From assembly GCF_012396365.1 (NCBI RefSeq), contig NZ_JAAXPG010000014.1:124001-188000 (forward strand): a stretch of DNA of 64,000 bases, written 5' to 3'. Below, piece after piece: positions 13,714 to 21,912 of the stretch. The DNA is from Nocardiopsis alborubida. Lineage in GTDB: Bacteria; Actinomycetota; Actinomycetes; Streptosporangiales; Streptosporangiaceae. Both the position numbers and the translations under genes were made by a program. Under the pieces are notes generated by a model. That model was not told where the DNA came from. It made no database searches and saw only the letters and a list, made by a program, of their open reading frames with translations. The number at the start of each line of letters is the position of its first letter. Within the stretch, counting starts at the first letter, position 1.

Positions 13714-14754
13714 TCATCCACGCACCCGGCTCTGGAGCAGAGCGGCAAGAGACTCCAGGTTGTGTGCGGTGGACGTGAACCTGATCAGGCGGTCTCGTTC
13801 GAACACCTTCGCCCGGAGTCCCCCCTCCCGGACGACACCGGCCAGCACGTCCCACCACACACCGTCCACGGAGGCGGTGACGAAGTTGGTGTTCCGGTCG
13901 GAGGCGACCCTGATCCTGTCCGCCTCCTCCAACACGCATGCGATGGCGTTGGTGATACCGAGTACCTGCCGGGCTCTGTCCCGGTTCTCCGCGAGGAAGG
14001 AGGACTCGCCGATGGCATGGCACACGCTGAGCTGGAACAGGTTCAGCGGAAAGTCCGGCTGTAGTCTCCGCAGTTGCCCGAGGACCTCGGGGGCGGCCGC
14101 CATCGCACCGACTCTGGCCCCGGCCAGCGAGTGCGACTTGGACAGGCTCAGGCACTGGAGGACGTTAGGGCGCTCGTAGCGCAGTAGGGCTTCCGCGTCA
14201 GGGTGGAAGAGCGCGTACGTCAGGTCGAGAACCACTAGGCCGACACCTGTGTCGGACAGCCGGTCCAGTTCCGGGGCCGTCCAGGAGGGGCCGACCGGGT
14301 TTCCCGGCGAACCCACCACCACCGCTCGGGCACTCCGGTCGGGCAGGGCGTGCACGTGCCGGACGAGTTCGGAGGGCGCTGTCCGCGCGTCGTAGGTGTG
14401 GTGCTCCGTCCCGAAGGTACGCAGAATGCGGGCATAGCCTGGATAGGAGGGGGCGGGGACGTGGAGCGCCATGCCGCGGTGGTGCGCGTGGAGGAAGGCG
14501 CACCGCAGCGCCTCGGTGCACCCGGAGGTGAGGGCGAGGCGTCCGGACGCCACCCCGAGTGCGTCAGCCAGGTGTTCCGAGGCGTTGACCGGTATGCGCT
14601 CCGGGTACCGGTTCCACGGTTCCTCGACGAGGATGCGGGCGACCCGTTCCTTGAACCGTGCGTCCGCGTCCAGATCCGACTCGGTCAGGTCCACCCCGGG
14701 CACGGGTGGATGTGAGAAGCGCGTGGCAGTGGACGGCCCGGTCGTCTCCTTCAA
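13714..14754 (-). CDS. PLP-dependent aminotransferase, class I/II fold
   Basis: The 346-aa protein has fold-type I aminotransferase landmarks: SPGNPVGP (Asn152), DLTYALF (Asp177, Tyr180) and the PLP Lys206 in SLSKSHSLAGAR. It resembles histidinol-phosphate aminotransferase/threonine-phosphate decarboxylase-type enzymes. The TTG start at 14754 overlaps the exporter stop (TTGA) with GGAGG before it; a longer open frame to 15543 is antisense noise. It is the last gene of the peptide operon. By analogy with MbnN of methanobactin clusters it could transaminate a processed peptide end, which is inference only. Catalytic residues look intact. Confidence 0.8.
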   Translation of the reverse strand: MKETTGPSTATRFSHPPVPGVDLTESDLDADARFKERVARILVEEPWNRYPERIPVNASEHLADALGVASGRLALTSGCTEALRCAFLHAHHRGMALHVPAPSYPGYARILRTFGTEHHTYDARTAPSELVRHVHALPDRSARAVVVGSPGNPVGPSWTAPELDRLSDTGVGLVVLDLTYALFHPDAEALLRYERPNVLQCLSLSKSHSLAGARVGAMAAAPEVLGQLRRLQPDFPLNLFQLSVCHAIGESSFLAENRDRARQVLGITNAIACVLEEADRIRVASDRNTNFVTASVDGVWWDVLAGVVREGGLRAKVFERDRLIRFTSTAHNLESLAALLQSRVRG

Positions 14755-16073
14755 CGCGCCGCCTCCGTCCGGGAGAGGAATCGCCTGGCCGCGTACACCG
14801 TGGACAGGGCGAATCCGGCACGGGCCGCGACCAGGACCAGCCACAGGGACAGCAGGTTCAGGAGCCCGGTCAGGGCCAACAACGCGATCACCGGCAGAGC
14901 GGTGCACCACAGCAGGACGACGAGGCTGCGTACGGTGGCATGGGGTGCGACGACGACCTTGAGCACCGACGACAGGAAACCCGCCCAGGGCTCCATCAGC
15001 AACTGGACGCCCACCAGCCGTACACCCCAGAGCACCATGGGCTCCTGTTCCAGGCCCAGCAGTCCCGCGATCGGGCCGGGGGCGGCCAGGAACAGCAGCG
15101 CGATCGGCCACAGGAGAAGAGCCGTGGACACCGTGAACAGACGCATCCGGCGCCCGTGGTCCTCGGGAGCGCTCTCGACGGTGCGCAGGAGCCGGCCCGC
15201 CACCATGCCGTAGGGCTTGAGCGGAACCACCAGTGTGCGGATGACCGTGATGAAGGCGACGGTGGCGGCGGCCTGGGCCACCGGCAGGGAAGTGGCGATC
15301 TGCGCGACCAGGGCGAAGGTCGCCACCAGCACGAGGACGTCGAACGCCCCTGAGAGGGAACCCGGAACGGAGCGCACCACGCGCGCGGAGAACATACTCC
15401 GGGCACCGGTACGCACGGCCCGGGCGGCGGCGCTCCTCGCCTCCGGTTCGGTGCGCAGCACGGTGCGGACGAGCGTCGCGAGGTCGATCAGGGAGCAGCC
15501 CGCGCCGATCACCGCCAGCGCGACCACCGGTGACGGCTGCCACAGGAACACGGCGACGGCGAGTGCCGCGTAACCGGCGAAGTTCTCCACGCTCGTGCGC
15601 AGGCGCACGCCCTCCTGGCCGGTGACCACCAGGATTCCCCCTGCGGCGTACATCAGGGGAGCGATGAACACGGCCGGAAGGTAGGCGAGGTAGTAGGCGG
15701 CGAACAGGGCGGGGGAGTGCTGGAAGAAGAAGGCGCCGCCGCCCGCCACCAGAGCGGCCGCGGTGAGGAACACGGAGCCGGCCAGCACCACGGCGGCCAG
15801 GGCGGCCGGCTTCTCCGTGTCCCGCAGGAGCGTTTCCCCGCGAAGGCGGGCGACCACGAGGATCTGGTAGGCCGTGCCCAGGGACATGACCACCAGCAGG
15901 AGGGAGAGCGTACTTCCGTAGGACGCCGTGACCTCGGGGCCGTACGCGCCCAGCGCGGAGAAGAAGACCAGGACCCTGGCTCCGGGGAGGAACACGGCCA
16001 GGGCCATCTTCGTGCCGCGCGAAAGGAATTCCTGTGCGGCTCCGCCTTTTCTCTTGGCGGATTCTGTTGACAT
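14751..16073 (-). CDS. MATE/MOP-superfamily exporter
   Basis: The 440-aa protein has about twelve hydrophobic segments and no soluble domain, with the paired six-helix arrangement of MOP (MATE/Wzx-like) flippases. An N-terminal basic stretch (STESAKRKGG) precedes the first helix. It lies between the 151-aa protein and the aminotransferase in the peptide operon, so its likely cargo is the mature peptide. Methanobactin clusters use a MATE exporter, MbnM, in the same role. Sequence alone does not separate MATE from polysaccharide flippase, and no sugar genes are nearby. Confidence 0.75.
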   Translation of the reverse strand: MSTESAKRKGGAAQEFLSRGTKMALAVFLPGARVLVFFSALGAYGPEVTASYGSTLSLLLVVMSLGTAYQILVVARLRGETLLRDTEKPAALAAVVLAGSVFLTAAALVAGGGAFFFQHSPALFAAYYLAYLPAVFIAPLMYAAGGILVVTGQEGVRLRTSVENFAGYAALAVAVFLWQPSPVVALAVIGAGCSLIDLATLVRTVLRTEPEARSAAARAVRTGARSMFSARVVRSVPGSLSGAFDVLVLVATFALVAQIATSLPVAQAAATVAFITVIRTLVVPLKPYGMVAGRLLRTVESAPEDHGRRMRLFTVSTALLLWPIALLFLAAPGPIAGLLGLEQEPMVLWGVRLVGVQLLMEPWAGFLSSVLKVVVAPHATVRSLVVLLWCTALPVIALLALTGLLNLLSLWLVLVAARAGFALSTVYAARRFLSRTEAAR

Positions 16074-16080
16074 GGGTTCT

Positions 16081-16536
16081 TCAGCGTTCCAGGTTGTTGA
16101 TCTGCTCCAGTGTCAGGTTGAACTCACGCTGAAGGAATTGCACGACCGCCCAGTCCTTGGCGGTCTCCGGGGTGAACTCGCCGAAGGTCTCCAGGTAGTC
16201 TGGAACCCATTCCAGGAACTGGGAAACGGCTTTGTGCTTCCCGATGCGCTCTCCGTATTCGGCGAACCCGACACTCTGGTGGTGAATGTAACGCTTGCCG
16301 GGAAGCGATTCGCAGAGGTCCATGTAGAACTTCGTCTGCACGATCATCTCGTGCCAGACCTCGTCCGCCTCGCGGGTGAGCGGAATGAACCGCCCCTTGT
16401 TCACCGAGACGATGTGGAGGAACTTCAGGCACTCGTCGATCTGCCGTTGAACCTCTTCCCGGCTGCGGTCCTCGAAGTGCTCGACCACCAGTTCCCGGTA
16501 TTCGTCCGGTATGTTGACCAGGGCTGCTGTGCTCAC
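16081..16536 (-). CDS. 151-aa His-rich protein, WHxxI...TxxYxxxC...HH motif
   Basis: The central segment (residues 58-87) reads DEVWHEMIVQTKFYMDLC then a short gap to YIHHQ, giving His62, Cys75, His85 and His86 as possible metal ligands. The spacing resembles the glycine-rich-domain-protein-like family (PF07173), whose members are poorly understood. The rest is helical and charged. GTG 16536 has GAGGAGAG upstream. It is the gene directly after the precursor peptide, where the modifying enzyme or leader-binding partner would sit. GC is lower than in neighbours. A catalytic role is inference; a recognition-element role is equally possible. Confidence 0.6.
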   Translation of the reverse strand: MSTAALVNIPDEYRELVVEHFEDRSREEVQRQIDECLKFLHIVSVNKGRFIPLTREADEVWHEMIVQTKFYMDLCESLPGKRYIHHQSVGFAEYGERIGKHKAVSQFLEWVPDYLETFGEFTPETAKDWAVVQFLQREFNLTLEQINNLER

Positions 16537-16607
16537 AGGGCTCTCCTCGGTTCGGGGAGGGGCGGACCCGGACGAGAGGGCCCGTGCCCGCCCCGATCCG
16601 CCGGTCT

Positions 16608-16700
16608 CTAGTAGATCTCGGCGCAGCAGGACTGGGCGTACTCCTCGAGCTTCTCGGTAAGCTCGTCGTCGATCCTGTCCTTCAGGTCTTCGAGCGACAT
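16608..16700 (-). CDS. 30-aa putative RiPP precursor peptide
   Basis: The peptide runs MSLEDLKDRIDDELTEKLEE followed by YAQSCCAEIY. Residues 2-20 are a strongly charged amphipathic helix, as in many leader peptides. The last seven residues (SCCAEIY) form a compact core with two adjacent Cys and a terminal Tyr. GGAGA lies seven bases before the ATG. It opens an operon with a His-rich protein, an exporter and an aminotransferase. An in-frame ATG at 16847, also with AGGAGA, would give 79 residues, but the extra part is Arg-rich and non-coding in look. There is no radical SAM gene and no GG cleavage motif. Confidence 0.65.
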   Translation of the reverse strand: MSLEDLKDRIDDELTEKLEEYAQSCCAEIY

Positions 16701-16874
16701 TCGATTCTCCTCTCGCTGTCGAAACGGGTCGTGACCGTTGGGCGAGCGCGTTCTGCGTCCAGAGAAGTTCGCTGGCTTGGCTGGACAGAAACCCCTCGTC
16801 GCTTCAGGGCCCCGGTCTCCTGCTTCCGTCAACCTTCGACGGGGCATCAAAGATCTCCTGAAGCGCATCGTGAG

Positions 16875-16903
16875 ATTAACATGGCTTTCCGTGGCCGCGT
16901 CAA
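16875..16903 (-). promoter_or_regulatory. promoter for the peptide operon
   Basis: On the minus strand TTGACG (16903-16898) and GTTAAT (16880-16875) are spaced by 17 bases, a good housekeeping-type promoter. It would give a leader of roughly 170 bases before the peptide ATG at 16700. A short inverted repeat near 16559-16594, between peptide and next gene, might act as a partial terminator that raises peptide dosage. Confidence 0.45.
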
Positions 16904-17374
16904 GGAGTGATTGTTCCTTGGAGCGGTTTCCGGATTGGGTTGAAAGTGCTGGCCAGAGGGCTGGCGACTTTGTGAAATGGCGCGGGCTCCTGTCCGGTTC
17001 CGGCCATTTCCATGAGGCGCTGCACGGTGGCGGGGAGGCCGAATACCTGCAGCTTTGCGCCGATGCGCAAGCGGGCGCGGTCTTCGCGACCACCAAGGTG
17101 TCCGAGCCGTTCGGCGGCAGAGGTGGGCGCCTGGGCAGTCGGCTGCCGGGGCTGAAGCCAAGACGGTACGCGGGGGAGTGTCGGCCCTCACTGCCGTGCG
17201 TGGCGTGGACCTCCCGCGCTGCGCTCGGCCCGCCCGCGGCCCCGGCGGCCGGGGTCCCCGGGACAAACCGGGTATCCCCTTCCCCGCAGGGCTTCCGCGT
17301 TCCCGCGCGTGGCGGTCCGGCGCGCCCCTCCGTCCCGCCTCGCCCCTGTTCGGCGGGGGATGGGGGGATCAATA
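16904..17374. other. gene-free interval between peptide operon and Opp operon
   Basis: I see no convincing gene. On the minus strand a frame without a good start or ribosome site, open from about 17160 to a stop at 16900-16902, includes the stretch GLPATVQRLMEMAGTG. This faintly recalls the end of a STAS domain and may be a gene remnant. Composition is lower in GC at the left side. The right side (17180-17350) is GC-rich with no clear signal until the Zur-like box. Confidence 0.4.
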
Positions 17375-17391
17375 ATGAAAACGGTTGTCAT
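17375..17391. promoter_or_regulatory. Zur-like zinc box before the Opp/Cnt-like operon
   Basis: ATGAAAACGGTTGTCAT is a dyad centred 80 bases before the binding-protein start. Its core matches TGAAAATGATTTTCA at 12 of 15 positions. Together with the box before zur it suggests that the five-gene transport operon is repressed by zinc-loaded Zur. Confidence 0.55.
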
Positions 17392-17462
17392 ATGCTGCTC
17401 TGGTCCGCCGAGGCGTCCGCGCGCCGCGGCGGCCTCCCCGCCCCCGACCCGGAAGAACCGCC

Positions 17463-18953
17463 GTGCACCTGCGCAAGATCCCTCCCGGCGCCTGCCTGGC
17501 CGCCGCCTCCGCCCTCCTGCTGACCGCCTGCTTCCCCTCCGGCGGCGACACCGCCACCGCCGACGAGGACGGGCGCATCGCGGTGGCGATGATGCAGCCG
17601 CCCAGGTCGGCCCTGTCCCCGCTCACCGACGACGCCTTCAAGCTCTCCCGCTGGAGCACCGCCGAGACCCTCGTCGTCCTGGACGAGGTCGGCGACCCCC
17701 AGCCCGGCCTGGCCACCGAGTGGACCCAGGTGGACGAGACCACCTGGACCTTCACCATCCGCGACGGGGTGACCTTCCACGACGGCACGGAGCTGACCGC
17801 CGACGTGGCCGCCCACTCCCTGGAGTACGCCGCGCAGGCCTCGCCCAAGCCGCGCATCCTCGACGGCGTCGAACTCGGCATCGAGGCCGAGGGCGGCACC
17901 GTCACCGTCACCACCGCCGAGGCCGACCCGCTCGTCCCGCAGCGCCTGTCCTCGCCGCAGCTGTCGATCCTGGCCGAGAGCGCCTACGAGGGTGACACCG
18001 TCAGCCCGGTCGGCACCGGCTCGGGCCCCTTCGAGCTGGTCGAGGTCAACGGCACCACCTCCGCGAGCCTGGACCGCTACGACGGCTACTGGGGCGAGGC
18101 GGCCCTGGCCCCGGGCATCGACGTCAGCTTCGTGCCCGACGGCACCGCCCGCGCCGCGGCCCTGCGCACCGGCGAGGCCGACATCGTGGAGGCCGTGCCC
18201 ACCTCCCAGGCCGCCCTGCTGGACCAGGAGCTGATCACCGAGGTGCCGATGCCGCGCACCAACACCCTCTACCTCAACACCCAGGACGGGCCCTTCACCG
18301 ACCCCGGCCTGCGCGCCGCCGCACGCGAGGCCATCGACCGGCAGGAGCTGGTGGACGGCGTCTACGAGGAGCGCGCGGACGTGGCCGAGGGCCTGCTGGG
18401 CCCCGCGCTGCCCTGGGCCGCCGACCGCCCCGAGCGCGAGGAGGCCACCGAGGCCGCCGACCCCGACGGCGCCGTCATCACCCTGGCCACCTTCACCGAC
18501 CGCGCCGAGCTGCCCGAGGTCGCCACCGTGCTGGAGCAGCAGCTGGAGGACGCCGGGTTCGAGGTCGAACAGGTCGTGCGCGAGTACGCCAACATCGAGG
18601 AGGACGCCCTCAACGGCGACTTCGACGCGTTCATCCTCTCCCGGGCGACCGTCCTGGACTCCGGTGACCCCGCCGCCTACATGACGAGCGACTTCTCCTG
18701 CGACGGCTCCTTCAACATCGCCCAGCTGTGCGACGAGGAGGTGGACGCGGCACTGGAGGAGGCCGAGCGGACCCCCGCGGGCGACGAGCGGCGCGCCGCG
18801 ATCCTGGAGGCCGAGGCGGCCGTCCTGGCCACCGACGCCGCCATCCCCATGCTGCACGAGCGCGTCATCCAGGGCGACGCCGCCAACGTCGTGGACTCGG
18901 CCAAGGACCCGCGCGAGCGCCTGCTCGTCACCCCGCGGACCCGGCTGAACTGA
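17463..18953 (+). CDS. family 5 solute-binding lipoprotein (Opp/Nik/Cnt type)
   Basis: The GTG-started 496-aa protein has a lipoprotein signal with lipobox LTAC (Cys about residue 20). It then has the SBP family 5 landmarks: an N-terminal lobe with RWSTAETLVVLDE and WTFTIRDGVTFHDGTELTA, and TGSGPFELVE in the middle. Family members bind peptides, nickel, haem or metallophores outside the membrane. Linkage to a Zur-like box and an MFS exporter favours a metal complex or metallophore. The stop overlaps the permease ATG by one base (TGATG). GGAAGAA precedes the GTG. Confidence 0.85.
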   Translation: MHLRKIPPGACLAAASALLLTACFPSGGDTATADEDGRIAVAMMQPPRSALSPLTDDAFKLSRWSTAETLVVLDEVGDPQPGLATEWTQVDETTWTFTIRDGVTFHDGTELTADVAAHSLEYAAQASPKPRILDGVELGIEAEGGTVTVTTAEADPLVPQRLSSPQLSILAESAYEGDTVSPVGTGSGPFELVEVNGTTSASLDRYDGYWGEAALAPGIDVSFVPDGTARAAALRTGEADIVEAVPTSQAALLDQELITEVPMPRTNTLYLNTQDGPFTDPGLRAAAREAIDRQELVDGVYEERADVAEGLLGPALPWAADRPEREEATEAADPDGAVITLATFTDRAELPEVATVLEQQLEDAGFEVEQVVREYANIEEDALNGDFDAFILSRATVLDSGDPAAYMTSDFSCDGSFNIAQLCDEEVDAALEEAERTPAGDERRAAILEAEAAVLATDAAIPMLHERVIQGDAANVVDSAKDPRERLLVTPRTRLN

Positions 18954-20818
18954 TGGACGCCGCCGCCCCCGACCGCACCGCCGCCCCCGATCACACCGGG
19001 CGCCCCGGCCGCACCGGCGCCCGCGGGGCCGGGTGGCTCCTGCCCCTGGTCTCCCGCGTCGCCGCCCTGGTCCTGGTCACGGTCGTCGTCGGACTCCTGC
19101 CCTGGCTGTCCGGGCGCGATCCCGCCCTGTCGGTGCTGCGCGCCCGCTCGGCCGAGCAGGCGCCCACGCCCGAGGTGCTCGACGCCATCCGGGAGGACCT
19201 CGGCCTGGCCGACGGCCCCGCGGCGACGCTCGCCCGCTGGTTCGGCGGCGTCCTGCAGGGCGACCTCGGCCGCTCCTGGGTCTCCGACGCGCCCGTGCTG
19301 CCCTCGGTCGTCTCGGCCATGGGCGTGTCCCTGACGGTCATGGGCGCCGCGCTCGCCGTCGCCCTGGTCGTCGCGGCCGCGCTGTGCGCACCCGCTCTGG
19401 TGCGCGGGGTGCGCGGCACCCCCCGCCGGGTCGGGTCGGGCAGCGGGGCCGCCGCCGCGATGCTCACGGCCCTGCCCGAGTTCCTCGTCGCCGTCCTGCT
19501 CATGGTCTCGCTCTCGGTGTGGCTGGGCTGGCTGCCGCCCTACGGCTGGCAGGGGCCGGAGAACCTCGTGCTCCCGGCCCTGGCGCTGGGCCTGCCCGCG
19601 GGCGGACTGCTGGGACGGCTGCTCGACGACGCGCTGCCCGCCGTCCTCACCGAACGCTGGGTGGGGCTGTGGACGGCCTCGGGCTGCTCCCCGGCGGCCA
19701 TCGCCGCCGCGGCCCTGCGCCGGGCCACCCCCGCCCTCATCCCCCAGTTCGCCATGGTCGTCGTCGGCCTGACCGGCGGCGCCGTCGCGGTCGAGACGGT
19801 CTTCGCCGTCCCCGGGATCGGCCGCACCGCCCTGGGCGCCGCCCAGTCCCAGGACCTGCCGCTGCTCCAGGGCTCGGTGCTCGGACTGGTGCTGCTCGGC
19901 ACCGCGGCCGGGATCGCCGCCCAGGCCGCGCGCCGCCTCCTGCTGGGCCCGGGCCTGCACGACGCGGCCCTGTCCCTGCCCCCGCCGCCCACGGCCCCCG
20001 CGGGAGCCGTGCGCCGCGCGGTGCCCGCGGTGTGCGCGGCGCTGATCCTGGCGGTGTGCCTGTGGGGACTGACCCGCGACGCCATGACCGTCCAAGTGGC
20101 CGAACGCCTCGCCGCGCCCTCCTGGGACCACCCCCTGGGCACCGACGCGGTCGGCCGCGACGTCCTGGCCCGGCTCGGGCACGGCGCCCTGGCCACCGTG
20201 GGCACCGCGGCGCTGGTGTGCCTGGCCAGCCTGGCCGTCGCGCTGCTGGTCGGGTTCGCCCCGGCGCTGTCGGCGGGCGCCTCGGAGATCGCCAACGCCC
20301 TGCCCCCGGTGATCGCCGGAATCCTGGTGGCCGCCATCGCCGGGCCCGGCCCCCTCGGCGCCGCCGTGGCCGTGGCCCTGGTCTCCTGGCCCCCGCTCGC
20401 CGCGCACACCTCCGCGCTGGTCCAGGAGACGCGCGCGGCCGCCTACCTGACCGCGCAGCGGGCCCTGGGCGCCGACTCCCGCTGGATCCTGGTCCGGCAC
20501 GTGCTGCCCGCGGTCCTGGGGCCGGTGGCCCGCCACGCCGTGCTGCGCCTGCCGGGCATCGCGCTGGCCATCGCCTCGCTCGGCTTCCTCGGACTGGGCT
20601 CGCAGCCGCCCTCGGCCGAGTGGGGCCTGAGCCTGTCGGAGTCCCTGGCCTACGTGGAGCGCGCGCCCCTGGCGGCCCTGGCCCCGGCCGCCATGCTCCT
20701 GCTGCTGGCCGCGTTCGCCGTCTCCTCGTCCACGCTTCCCCGGGGCTCGTGGACGCCCTCGCGGCGCCGGACGTTCCGTTCCGCCCCGGTCGCACCACCC
20801 CGAGGAGCCCTGACGTGA
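18953..20818 (+). CDS. fused OppB-OppC-type ABC permease
   Basis: The 621-aa protein joins two permease halves that are normally separate. The first half (about 1-320) is OppB-like, ending in a domain with AVETVFAVPGIGRTALGAA. The second (about 345-605) is OppC-like, with WDHPLGTDAVGRDVLARL and the coupling-helix region RALGADSRWILVRHVLP. About ten membrane segments are seen. One chain would thus supply the whole channel. The gene overlaps its neighbours on both sides (TGATG and GTGA), so the fusion is not a sequencing accident between distant genes. A Pro-rich linker lies near residue 340. Confidence 0.85.
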   Translation: MDAAAPDRTAAPDHTGRPGRTGARGAGWLLPLVSRVAALVLVTVVVGLLPWLSGRDPALSVLRARSAEQAPTPEVLDAIREDLGLADGPAATLARWFGGVLQGDLGRSWVSDAPVLPSVVSAMGVSLTVMGAALAVALVVAAALCAPALVRGVRGTPRRVGSGSGAAAAMLTALPEFLVAVLLMVSLSVWLGWLPPYGWQGPENLVLPALALGLPAGGLLGRLLDDALPAVLTERWVGLWTASGCSPAAIAAAALRRATPALIPQFAMVVVGLTGGAVAVETVFAVPGIGRTALGAAQSQDLPLLQGSVLGLVLLGTAAGIAAQAARRLLLGPGLHDAALSLPPPPTAPAGAVRRAVPAVCAALILAVCLWGLTRDAMTVQVAERLAAPSWDHPLGTDAVGRDVLARLGHGALATVGTAALVCLASLAVALLVGFAPALSAGASEIANALPPVIAGILVAAIAGPGPLGAAVAVALVSWPPLAAHTSALVQETRAAAYLTAQRALGADSRWILVRHVLPAVLGPVARHAVLRLPGIALAIASLGFLGLGSQPPSAEWGLSLSESLAYVERAPLAALAPAAMLLLLAAFAVSSSTLPRGSWTPSRRRTFRSAPVAPPRGALT

Positions 20819-21912
20819 CGATCGGCGACAAGGAAGCGACGACGAGCGGGCGCGGCCTCCCGTTCCCGGACGGCGGGGCGCCCGGGACCGGGGAGGCGGT
20901 GAGCGGTGAGGCCCTGCTGTCGGTCCGCGACCTGCGGGTCACCCTGCCCGGACGGCGAGGGGGCGGGGTCAGCGCCGTGCGCGGGCTCTCCTTCGACGTG
21001 CGCCCCGGCGAGGTGCTCGCTCTCGTGGGGGAGTCGGGGGCGGGGAAGTCGGTCACCGCCCGCGCCGTCCTGGGCATGGCGCCCTCCGGCGCCTCCGTCA
21101 CCGGAAGCGTCCGCCTGGACGGGCGTGAACTGGTCGGAGCCCCGCCCGCGGTCCTGCGGCCCCTGCGCGGGCGGCGGATGTCCCTGGTGCCCCAGGACGC
21201 GCTCGCGGTGCTCAGCCCCGTGCACACCGTGGGCGCCCAACTCGTGCGCGCCCTGCGCTCCGTGCGCCGGATGAGCCGTGCCTCGGCGTGGGAGCGGGCG
21301 GTGGCCGCCCTGGACCGGGTCGGCATCCCCGACGCGGCCCGGCGCGCGCACGCCTACCCGCACGAGTTCTCCGGCGGCATGCGCCAGCGGGCGGTCATCG
21401 CGATGGCCACGGTCAACGAACCCGCCCTGGTGTTCGCCGACGAGCCCACGACCGCGCTCGACCCCAGGATGCAGGCCCGGATGCTGGAACTGCTGTGCGG
21501 GCTGCGGGAGCGGACCGGCACCGCGGTCGTCCTGGTCACCCACGACCTGGGCGTCGTCGGCGGCTACGCCGACCGGGTGGTGGTCGTCTACGCCGGGCGC
21601 CACGTCGAGTCGGGCCCGGTGGGGCCGGTCCTGACCCGGCCCCGCGCCCCCTACACCGCGGGCCTGGTCGCCGCGCTGCCCCGGCCCGGGGCCGGGGACC
21701 GCCGCCTCCCCGCCATCGCCGGAACGCCCCCCTCGCCGGAGGCGCTGCCCGGCGGCTGCGCCTTCGCGCCCCGCTGTCCGCTGGCGCAGGATCGGTGCCA
21801 CGCCGAGGAGCCCTCACCCGCGGCGGCGGGGGAGTCGGGCAGGCTGGTGTCCTGCCACCGCTGGCAGGACCTGCCCGACCCGGCGTCCTCCCTGTTCACG
21901 GACACCGCGTGA
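20815..21912 (+). CDS. ABC transporter ATPase, OppD-like
   Basis: A GTG start overlaps the permease stop (GTGA), with GAGGAG upstream. The 365-aa protein has Walker A GESGAGKSVT, signature FSGGMRQRAVIAMA, Walker B LVFADEPT and the C-terminal Opp/Dpp extension with the Cys-rich GGCAFAPRCPLAQDRC. In Opp/Dpp proteins this extension can hold an iron-sulfur cluster. A leader of about 35 residues precedes the ATPase core. It should pair with the ATPase at 22053. Repeat copy E follows the stop. Confidence 0.88.
   Translation: MTIGDKEATTSGRGLPFPDGGAPGTGEAVSGEALLSVRDLRVTLPGRRGGGVSAVRGLSFDVRPGEVLALVGESGAGKSVTARAVLGMAPSGASVTGSVRLDGRELVGAPPAVLRPLRGRRMSLVPQDALAVLSPVHTVGAQLVRALRSVRRMSRASAWERAVAALDRVGIPDAARRAHAYPHEFSGGMRQRAVIAMATVNEPALVFADEPTTALDPRMQARMLELLCGLRERTGTAVVLVTHDLGVVGGYADRVVVVYAGRHVESGPVGPVLTRPRAPYTAGLVAALPRPGAGDRRLPAIAGTPPSPEALPGGCAFAPRCPLAQDRCHAEEPSPAAAGESGRLVSCHRWQDLPDPASSLFTDTA

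Follow-up and report, generated by a model that had tools for sequence, protein, structure and literature searches.

A candidate cysteine-peptide modification operon in Nocardiopsis alborubida and the GRDP-like protein family that accompanies its peptide

What might an actinomycete make from a 30-amino-acid (aa) peptide with the tail SCCAEIY, encoded just ahead of a 151-aa protein, a membrane protein, and an aminotransferase? This question is raised by a four-gene operon of Nocardiopsis alborubida, which lies in a 64,000-nucleotide stretch of contig NZ_JAAXPG010000014.1 (positions 124,001 to 188,000 of the forward strand; assembly GCF_012396365.1), hereafter the window. The product of this operon is probably a small modified peptide that contains cysteine. 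The reading that we favor, at a probability of roughly 0.6, is drawn from genome comparison: the 30-aa peptide would be the precursor of a ribosomally synthesized and posttranslationally modified peptide (RiPP), and the 151-aa protein, here called GR, would bind it and serve its cysteine core to exchangeable tailoring enzymes. The four reading frames were confirmed, all on the minus strand and in the order peptide, GR, membrane protein, aminotransferase; these genes and a promoter-like element ahead of them are as follows.

16608..16700, minus strand: gene of the 30-aa candidate precursor peptide (P0001) with the tail SCCAEIY, supported by codon-position GC, a ribosome site, and homology to peptides of N. 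kunsanensis and N. xinjiangensis
16081..16536, minus strand: 151-aa GR (P0002), predicted to be all-helical, with the GRDP-like motif D-x-x-WH...T..Y...C....G....HH; common to three cluster architectures
14751..16073, minus strand: 440-aa polytopic membrane protein (P0003), a probable exporter or self-protection protein
13714..14754, minus strand: fold-type I pyridoxal phosphate (PLP) aminotransferase, HisC/CobD-like (P0004), with its start inside the exporter stop codon
16903..16875, minus strand: promoter-like TTGACG-17-GTTAAT, seen by eye and missed by a consensus scan

The peptide gene

Read from 16700 to 16608, the peptide is MSLEDLKDRIDDELTEKLEEYAQSCCAEIY, and its gene is preceded by the ribosome site gagaggagaatcgaATG / GAGAGGAG. 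The GC content of the frame by codon position (0.55/0.26/0.94) is a strong high-GC coding signature. Twenty small open reading frame (ORF) starts in the 64-kb window (25 to 60 aa) are preceded by a ribosome site, and only one of them, that of this peptide, leads to a CC within the last 8 residues. Homologous peptides occupy the equivalent position in N. kunsanensis and N. xinjiangensis, with alignments 9.1 and 9.5 standard deviations over shuffled sequences and none of 5,000 shuffles scoring as high in either case. All three share the pattern EYA-x-x-C-x-x-x-I, and a comparison of N. kunsanensis with N. xinjiangensis places the frame under purifying selection (nonsynonymous divergence [dN] of 0.063, synonymous divergence [dS] of 0.41). 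The 30-aa CC-containing peptide gene with its own ribosome site, as originally predicted from the letters of the window, is confirmed. The two NCBIfam matches of the peptide both fall far below cutoff and are taken as chance: one, to the aCcr1 cell cycle regulator, scored 15.8 bits where the cutoff is 60 (E = 0.0095), and the other was to EXLDI (E = 0.1).

The same prediction gave the peptide a promoter of its own, which we could not uphold: a sigma-70 consensus scan found none ahead of the gene, and the element at 16903..16875 was picked out by eye. A syntenic relative, G005, carries TTGGCG-17-GCTAAT, again by eye and with equal spacing. The predicted four-base overlap of the aminotransferase gene with the exporter gene is real (14754 versus 14751), the aminotransferase starting at a TTG. 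Upstream of the operon, at 17385-21912, stand solute-binding, permease, and ATPase genes that by eye have the look of a peptide/nickel-type ATP-binding cassette (ABC) transporter; they are probably outside the operon, since they are kept in G005, which is without the peptide and GR.

Three cluster types that share the peptide and GR

GR occurs in a family with a sharp boundary. Among 394 genomes of the class it was matched at E < 1e-32 in nine, two of which are N. kunsanensis DSM 44524 and N. xinjiangensis YIM 90004, and the next match was at 7.5e-9; among 246 genomes of genus g87, which accounts for most of the other carriers and which we take to be Streptomyces, it was matched at E < 1e-30 in 29, with the next match at 1.9e-9. 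We fetched the neighborhood of every close homologue that these searches returned, giving 36 loci besides the window: the two Nocardiopsis loci and 34 loci with a repeat peptide, 33 of them in g87 and one in g165. In a tree of GR, the window sequence groups with the two Nocardiopsis sequences in a clade of their own (95/87), although branches are long and the placement is unsure.

The original prediction had proposed that short peptides with a cysteine tail should recur beside the 151-aa protein, and they do. A short cysteine-containing peptide gene lies upstream of GR in 35 of the 36 other loci (both Nocardiopsis loci and 33 of the 34 repeat-peptide loci), and at the remaining one, L082, the contig begins inside GR. 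This recurrence supports the proposal of a candidate RiPP operon in which the 151-aa protein is a partner or enzyme of a new kind.

Only the peptide and GR are common to the three architectures that these loci display. In the window (type i), the SCCAEIY peptide and GR are accompanied by the exporter and the aminotransferase. The type ii clusters of N. kunsanensis and N. xinjiangensis combine a CW-containing peptide and GR with an aminotransferase, a flavin adenine dinucleotide (FAD) monooxygenase, a B12-dependent radical S-adenosylmethionine (SAM) enzyme, and a multidrug and toxic compound extrusion (MATE) transporter. The peptides are MTIEEIKDLVTDSIENDENETLSEYAKNCWADIK in N. xinjiangensis (L018, 7394-7498, directly ahead of GR) and MTIEEVKDLVIDSIENDGNETLSEYAKNCWVDIE in N. 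kunsanensis (L017, 8027-8131), and the aminotransferases are about 32% identical to that of the window. Family scans of this type cover the N. xinjiangensis proteins; an N. kunsanensis ORF in the same place was likened to the radical SAM enzyme by eye. The N. xinjiangensis radical SAM enzyme belongs to TIGR03975, a RiPP maturation C-methyltransferase family (613.7 bits against a cutoff of 281.85), and its MATE transporter matches PF01554 at E = 3.5e-23. Its FAD monooxygenase, of the aromatic hydroxylase type, scores best against RdmE (359.9 bits; cutoff, 700), with MbnF at 294.8 bits (cutoff, 800).

The 34 loci of type iii encode a peptide with two to four GC[IV]S motifs (for example, MDKLIKKMAQDNVWKGWVAANSARDAAKDGCISVAKSGCISAAPKAGCIS), an adenylating enzyme of about 410 to 420 aa with weak similarity to PaaK, and GR. 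All cysteines of the 33 available peptides lie inside these motifs, of which there are three in 28 peptides, two in 3, and four in 2; the C-terminal end is GCIS in 29 of the 33. One precursor (L103, 3899 onward) has lost the cysteine of its third repeat, which reads GRIS. The genes of the adenylating enzyme and of close GR were found in the same 29 of the 246 g87 genomes, by comparison of the lists by hand. Searches of the 34 loci by tblastn (E, 1e-4) returned no aminotransferase, FAD monooxygenase, radical SAM enzyme, or exporter of types i and ii, and a single major facilitator superfamily (MFS) transporter query matched in 22. By eye, the fetched neighborhoods (L061-L066 and L076-L103) include a gene for a SulP transporter at 20 of the 34 loci and one for a carbonic anhydrase at 15. 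The only type iii locus outside g87, L064 (G356), adjoins an insertion sequence transposase-like gene (228-929, by eye), which suggests horizontal transfer.

Across six peptide pairs that we chose, dS exceeded dN in every case (dN, 0.025 to 0.063; dS, 0.13 to 0.54). The genes, their homology, and the linkage of peptide, GR, and partner enzyme are direct observations, and they correspond to what marks a RiPP pathway: a short gene-encoded precursor kept next to modification genes, as the 35 of 36 loci, the homology, and the dN and dS values attest, and dedicated tailoring enzymes linked to that precursor, namely, an aminotransferase, an FAD monooxygenase with a B12 radical SAM enzyme, or an adenylating enzyme. 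Because the peptide and GR are all that the types have in common, this pair is the constant part and the tailoring enzyme the variable one.

GR, its partners, and the competing explanations

The WHxxI...C...HH motif noted in the original prediction is genuine. In an alignment of 29 sequences, D58, W61, H62, I65, T68, Y71, C75, G80, and H86 are invariant. GR had no Pfam or NCBIfam match up to E = 1, PF07173 included, and no convincing match in the PDB, and its structural model is confidently all-helical. Profile comparison indicates that it is distantly GRDP-like: hhalign related it to a bacterial GRDP-like group (98.5%; E = 2.6e-15), with the signature D-x-x-WH...T..Y...C....G....HH in both. 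PF07173 (DUF1399) covers GRDP-like proteins of plants and bacteria, and among five weak-hit GR-like proteins only that of L029 came close to it (22.5 bits against a cutoff of 22.7); the top literature matches for GRDP, as far as their retrieved text goes, concern plants. The wider GRDP-like superfamily occurs without a separate short peptide gene, so the linkage of peptide and GR is claimed for the close GR family only. Ten of the 16 weak-hit loci listed (L021, L022, L024, L025, L026, L027, L028, L067, L069, and L070) form a second group, in which a short, cysteine-rich, hypervariable tail is fused C-terminally to the WHxxI domain (in L026, ...SCSSKCQGCCSDHP); this looks like a leader domain and a cysteine core in a single protein. 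By eye, the next gene is APH-type kinase-like in 6 of these 10.

The window aminotransferase matches Aminotran_1_2 (Pfam; E = 1.1e-21) and is nearest to HisC/CobD in NCBIfam and to HisC structures in the PDB. K206, N152, D177, and Y180, which we take to be the positions expected of such an enzyme, are conserved in it and in both other Nocardiopsis aminotransferases. Within the window's genus, the enzyme was found in 3 of 40 genomes, the same three that hold a whole GR.

The membrane protein has 10 hydrophobic segments. It had been labeled a MATE/MOP-type exporter, a label that was not supported: it had no MatE match in Pfam or NCBIfam (its sole Pfam match, to MMPL, is below cutoff), no sequence match in the PDB, and, by profile comparison, no resemblance to the true MATE of N. 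xinjiangensis (hhalign probability, 0.1%). An AlphaFold model built from 4 sequences is too poor for fold assignment (predicted local distance difference test score, 37). Its gene was present in 4 of the 40 genus members and in no other genus among the 219 genomes of the order searched. In G005, whose syntenic sequence matches window positions 16866-20819 at 92.8% and 14688-16078 at 90.2%, about 33 bases take the place of the 787 that hold the peptide and GR genes, the aminotransferase is in fragments, and the exporter is open (L109, 5937-7259). In G017, the exporter (82%; L019, 4390-5697) follows a GR fragment, with neither a peptide nor an aminotransferase detected; in G012, it is 70% identical (L110, 5832-7151), and the 13.5 kb read contains neither peptide nor GR. 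The loss of peptide and GR with the exporter kept is seen directly in these sequences. The outcome named beforehand as one that would speak against the operon, disruption of the peptide frame with the other genes still intact, is not the pattern here, as G005 and G017 keep only the exporter. Such retention suggests, by gene content, that the exporter protects its producer against a bioactive product.

In the pathway that we propose, the precursor would comprise an acidic helical leader (about residues 1 to 22) and a short cysteine core (about SCCAEIY). GR would bind it and present the core to the tailoring enzyme of the given cluster: the aminotransferase in the window; the aminotransferase, FAD monooxygenase, and B12 radical SAM methyltransferase in type ii; and the PaaK-like adenylating enzyme in the GC[IV]S clusters. 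The aminotransferase would most likely remove an exposed amino group, for example, that of the N-terminal residue of the core after leader removal, to leave a keto group. The leader would have to be cut by a protease encoded outside the operon, because Pfam and NCBIfam revealed none among the four proteins of the operon. The membrane protein would then export a product, possibly of antibiotic-like activity, and protect the producer.

Several points weigh against this pathway. Scanned against Pfam and NCBIfam, the four proteins of the operon showed no leader protease, RiPP recognition domain, or enzyme of an established RiPP family, such as N. xinjiangensis has in its cluster, and the product and its modification are predicted from genes alone. 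The window peptide had no detectable similarity to the one type iii peptide compared with it (801 of 2,000 shuffles scored as high), so GR is the sole link between the cluster types. The conservation seen in GR extends to the same residues of wider GRDP-like proteins, so these residues need not be specific to peptide handling. Twelve of the 34 type iii loci had no match to the single MFS query and hence have no assigned exporter. Finally, the window exporter occurs without GR or aminotransferase in 3 of the 40 genus members and may therefore have another role.

GR could itself be the core enzyme acting on cysteine, with D58, H62, C75, and H86 as a putative metal or acid-base site and the partners supplying or finishing the chemistry. 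No protein other than GR and the peptide is found in all three types, cysteine is the residue common to the cores, and D58, W61, H62, T68, Y71, C75, G80, and H86 are all invariant; however, a motif found in wider GRDP-like proteins may be structural, and about 150 all-helical residues that matched no enzyme fold would suit a scaffold equally well, which leaves catalysis by GR an unlikely though serious candidate. Alternatively, the peptide could be a carrier, at whose C terminus a small amino acid-derived unit made by the aminotransferase or adenylating enzyme is assembled or set free, as in the pearlin pathways. Aminotransferases and acyl-adenylating enzymes commonly serve small-molecule supply, and the GC[IV]S repeats mostly end at the C terminus; against this, inspection of the gene lists by eye turned up no peptide aminoacyl-tRNA ligase (no family search was aimed at one), and the N. 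xinjiangensis radical SAM enzyme is of a family that takes its name from RiPP C-methylation. We judge a carrier role improbable. Still harder to sustain is a system without biosynthesis, in which a small cysteine peptide and its binding partner serve metal or redox homeostasis or regulation. The peptide does adjoin a possible His/Cys protein, and its subcutoff cell cycle regulator match points the same way, but several kinds of tailoring enzyme (one from a RiPP maturation family), repeated cores, a patchy distribution, and loss with the exporter kept all make this very unlikely.

The original prediction saw a methanobactin-like layout without the MbnB/MbnC pair. The layout parallel and the missing MbnB-family gene stand; kinship is not supported. 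Methanobactin operons (mbnABC with mbnM, mbnN, and mbnF) likewise hold a short cysteine-containing precursor, an aminotransferase, and an exporter, and the likeness is stronger in type ii, where a MATE transporter and an FAD monooxygenase distantly like MbnF are added. PMC3621798 states that MbnA and MbnB are present in all of its operons. The whole genome in which the window lies has no match to the MbnB/TglH/ChrH family (PF05114; the same search matched in 2 of 14 named control genomes), and membership is ruled out for that reason. Nor did a methanobactin precursor model appear among the peptide's NCBIfam matches up to E = 1, or an MbnN model among the 25 listed of the aminotransferase's 50. 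Furthermore, the window differs from methanobactin operons in an exporter that is not recognizably MATE and in GR. The parallel is one of layout only, and that the product is a methanobactin-like copper-binding peptide, lacking as the cluster does the defining feature, is the least credible of the explanations weighed.

Relation to known peptide pathways and significance

The favored reading, a RiPP precursor served by GR, has partial precedents. The daptide pathway, also a ribosomal-peptide pathway, uses a PLP aminotransferase, as the window would; the window enzyme, however, is HisC/CobD-like, and the operon has no daptide-type partner genes. Daptides, which are C-terminal amine RiPPs, are the subject of PMC10036551 and PMC12670281. 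The link to TIGR03975 RiPP clusters lies in type ii, through the N. xinjiangensis enzyme and the similar N. kunsanensis ORF; unlike such clusters, the window operon is without this enzyme, as are the 34 type iii loci by tblastn. In a limited search, the literature text retrieved held no description of GR beside a TIGR03975-type enzyme or of the three cluster types.

The clusters would be RiPPs, a known kind of product, with a fair chance of forming a new class, and the GR family with its peptides may be an undescribed peptide modification family. More tentatively, and at somewhat less than even odds, GR may define a new RiPP superclass: an all-helical precursor-binding or cysteine-modifying protein with interchangeable tailoring enzymes, a large multicore GC[IV]S branch within a single actinomycete genus, and a second, fused form that carries its own variable cysteine-rich core as a C-terminal tail. 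These clusters link a protein family for which we found no described function to peptide modification, and they make GR a searchable marker for clusters that are expected to escape searches made with known RiPP enzymes. The GC[IV]S group is an especially tractable one, with two conserved biosynthetic genes and a multicore precursor in 29 of 246 genomes of one genus. If the modification proves to be new cysteine chemistry, the RiPP toolbox would gain an enzyme or a recognition module.

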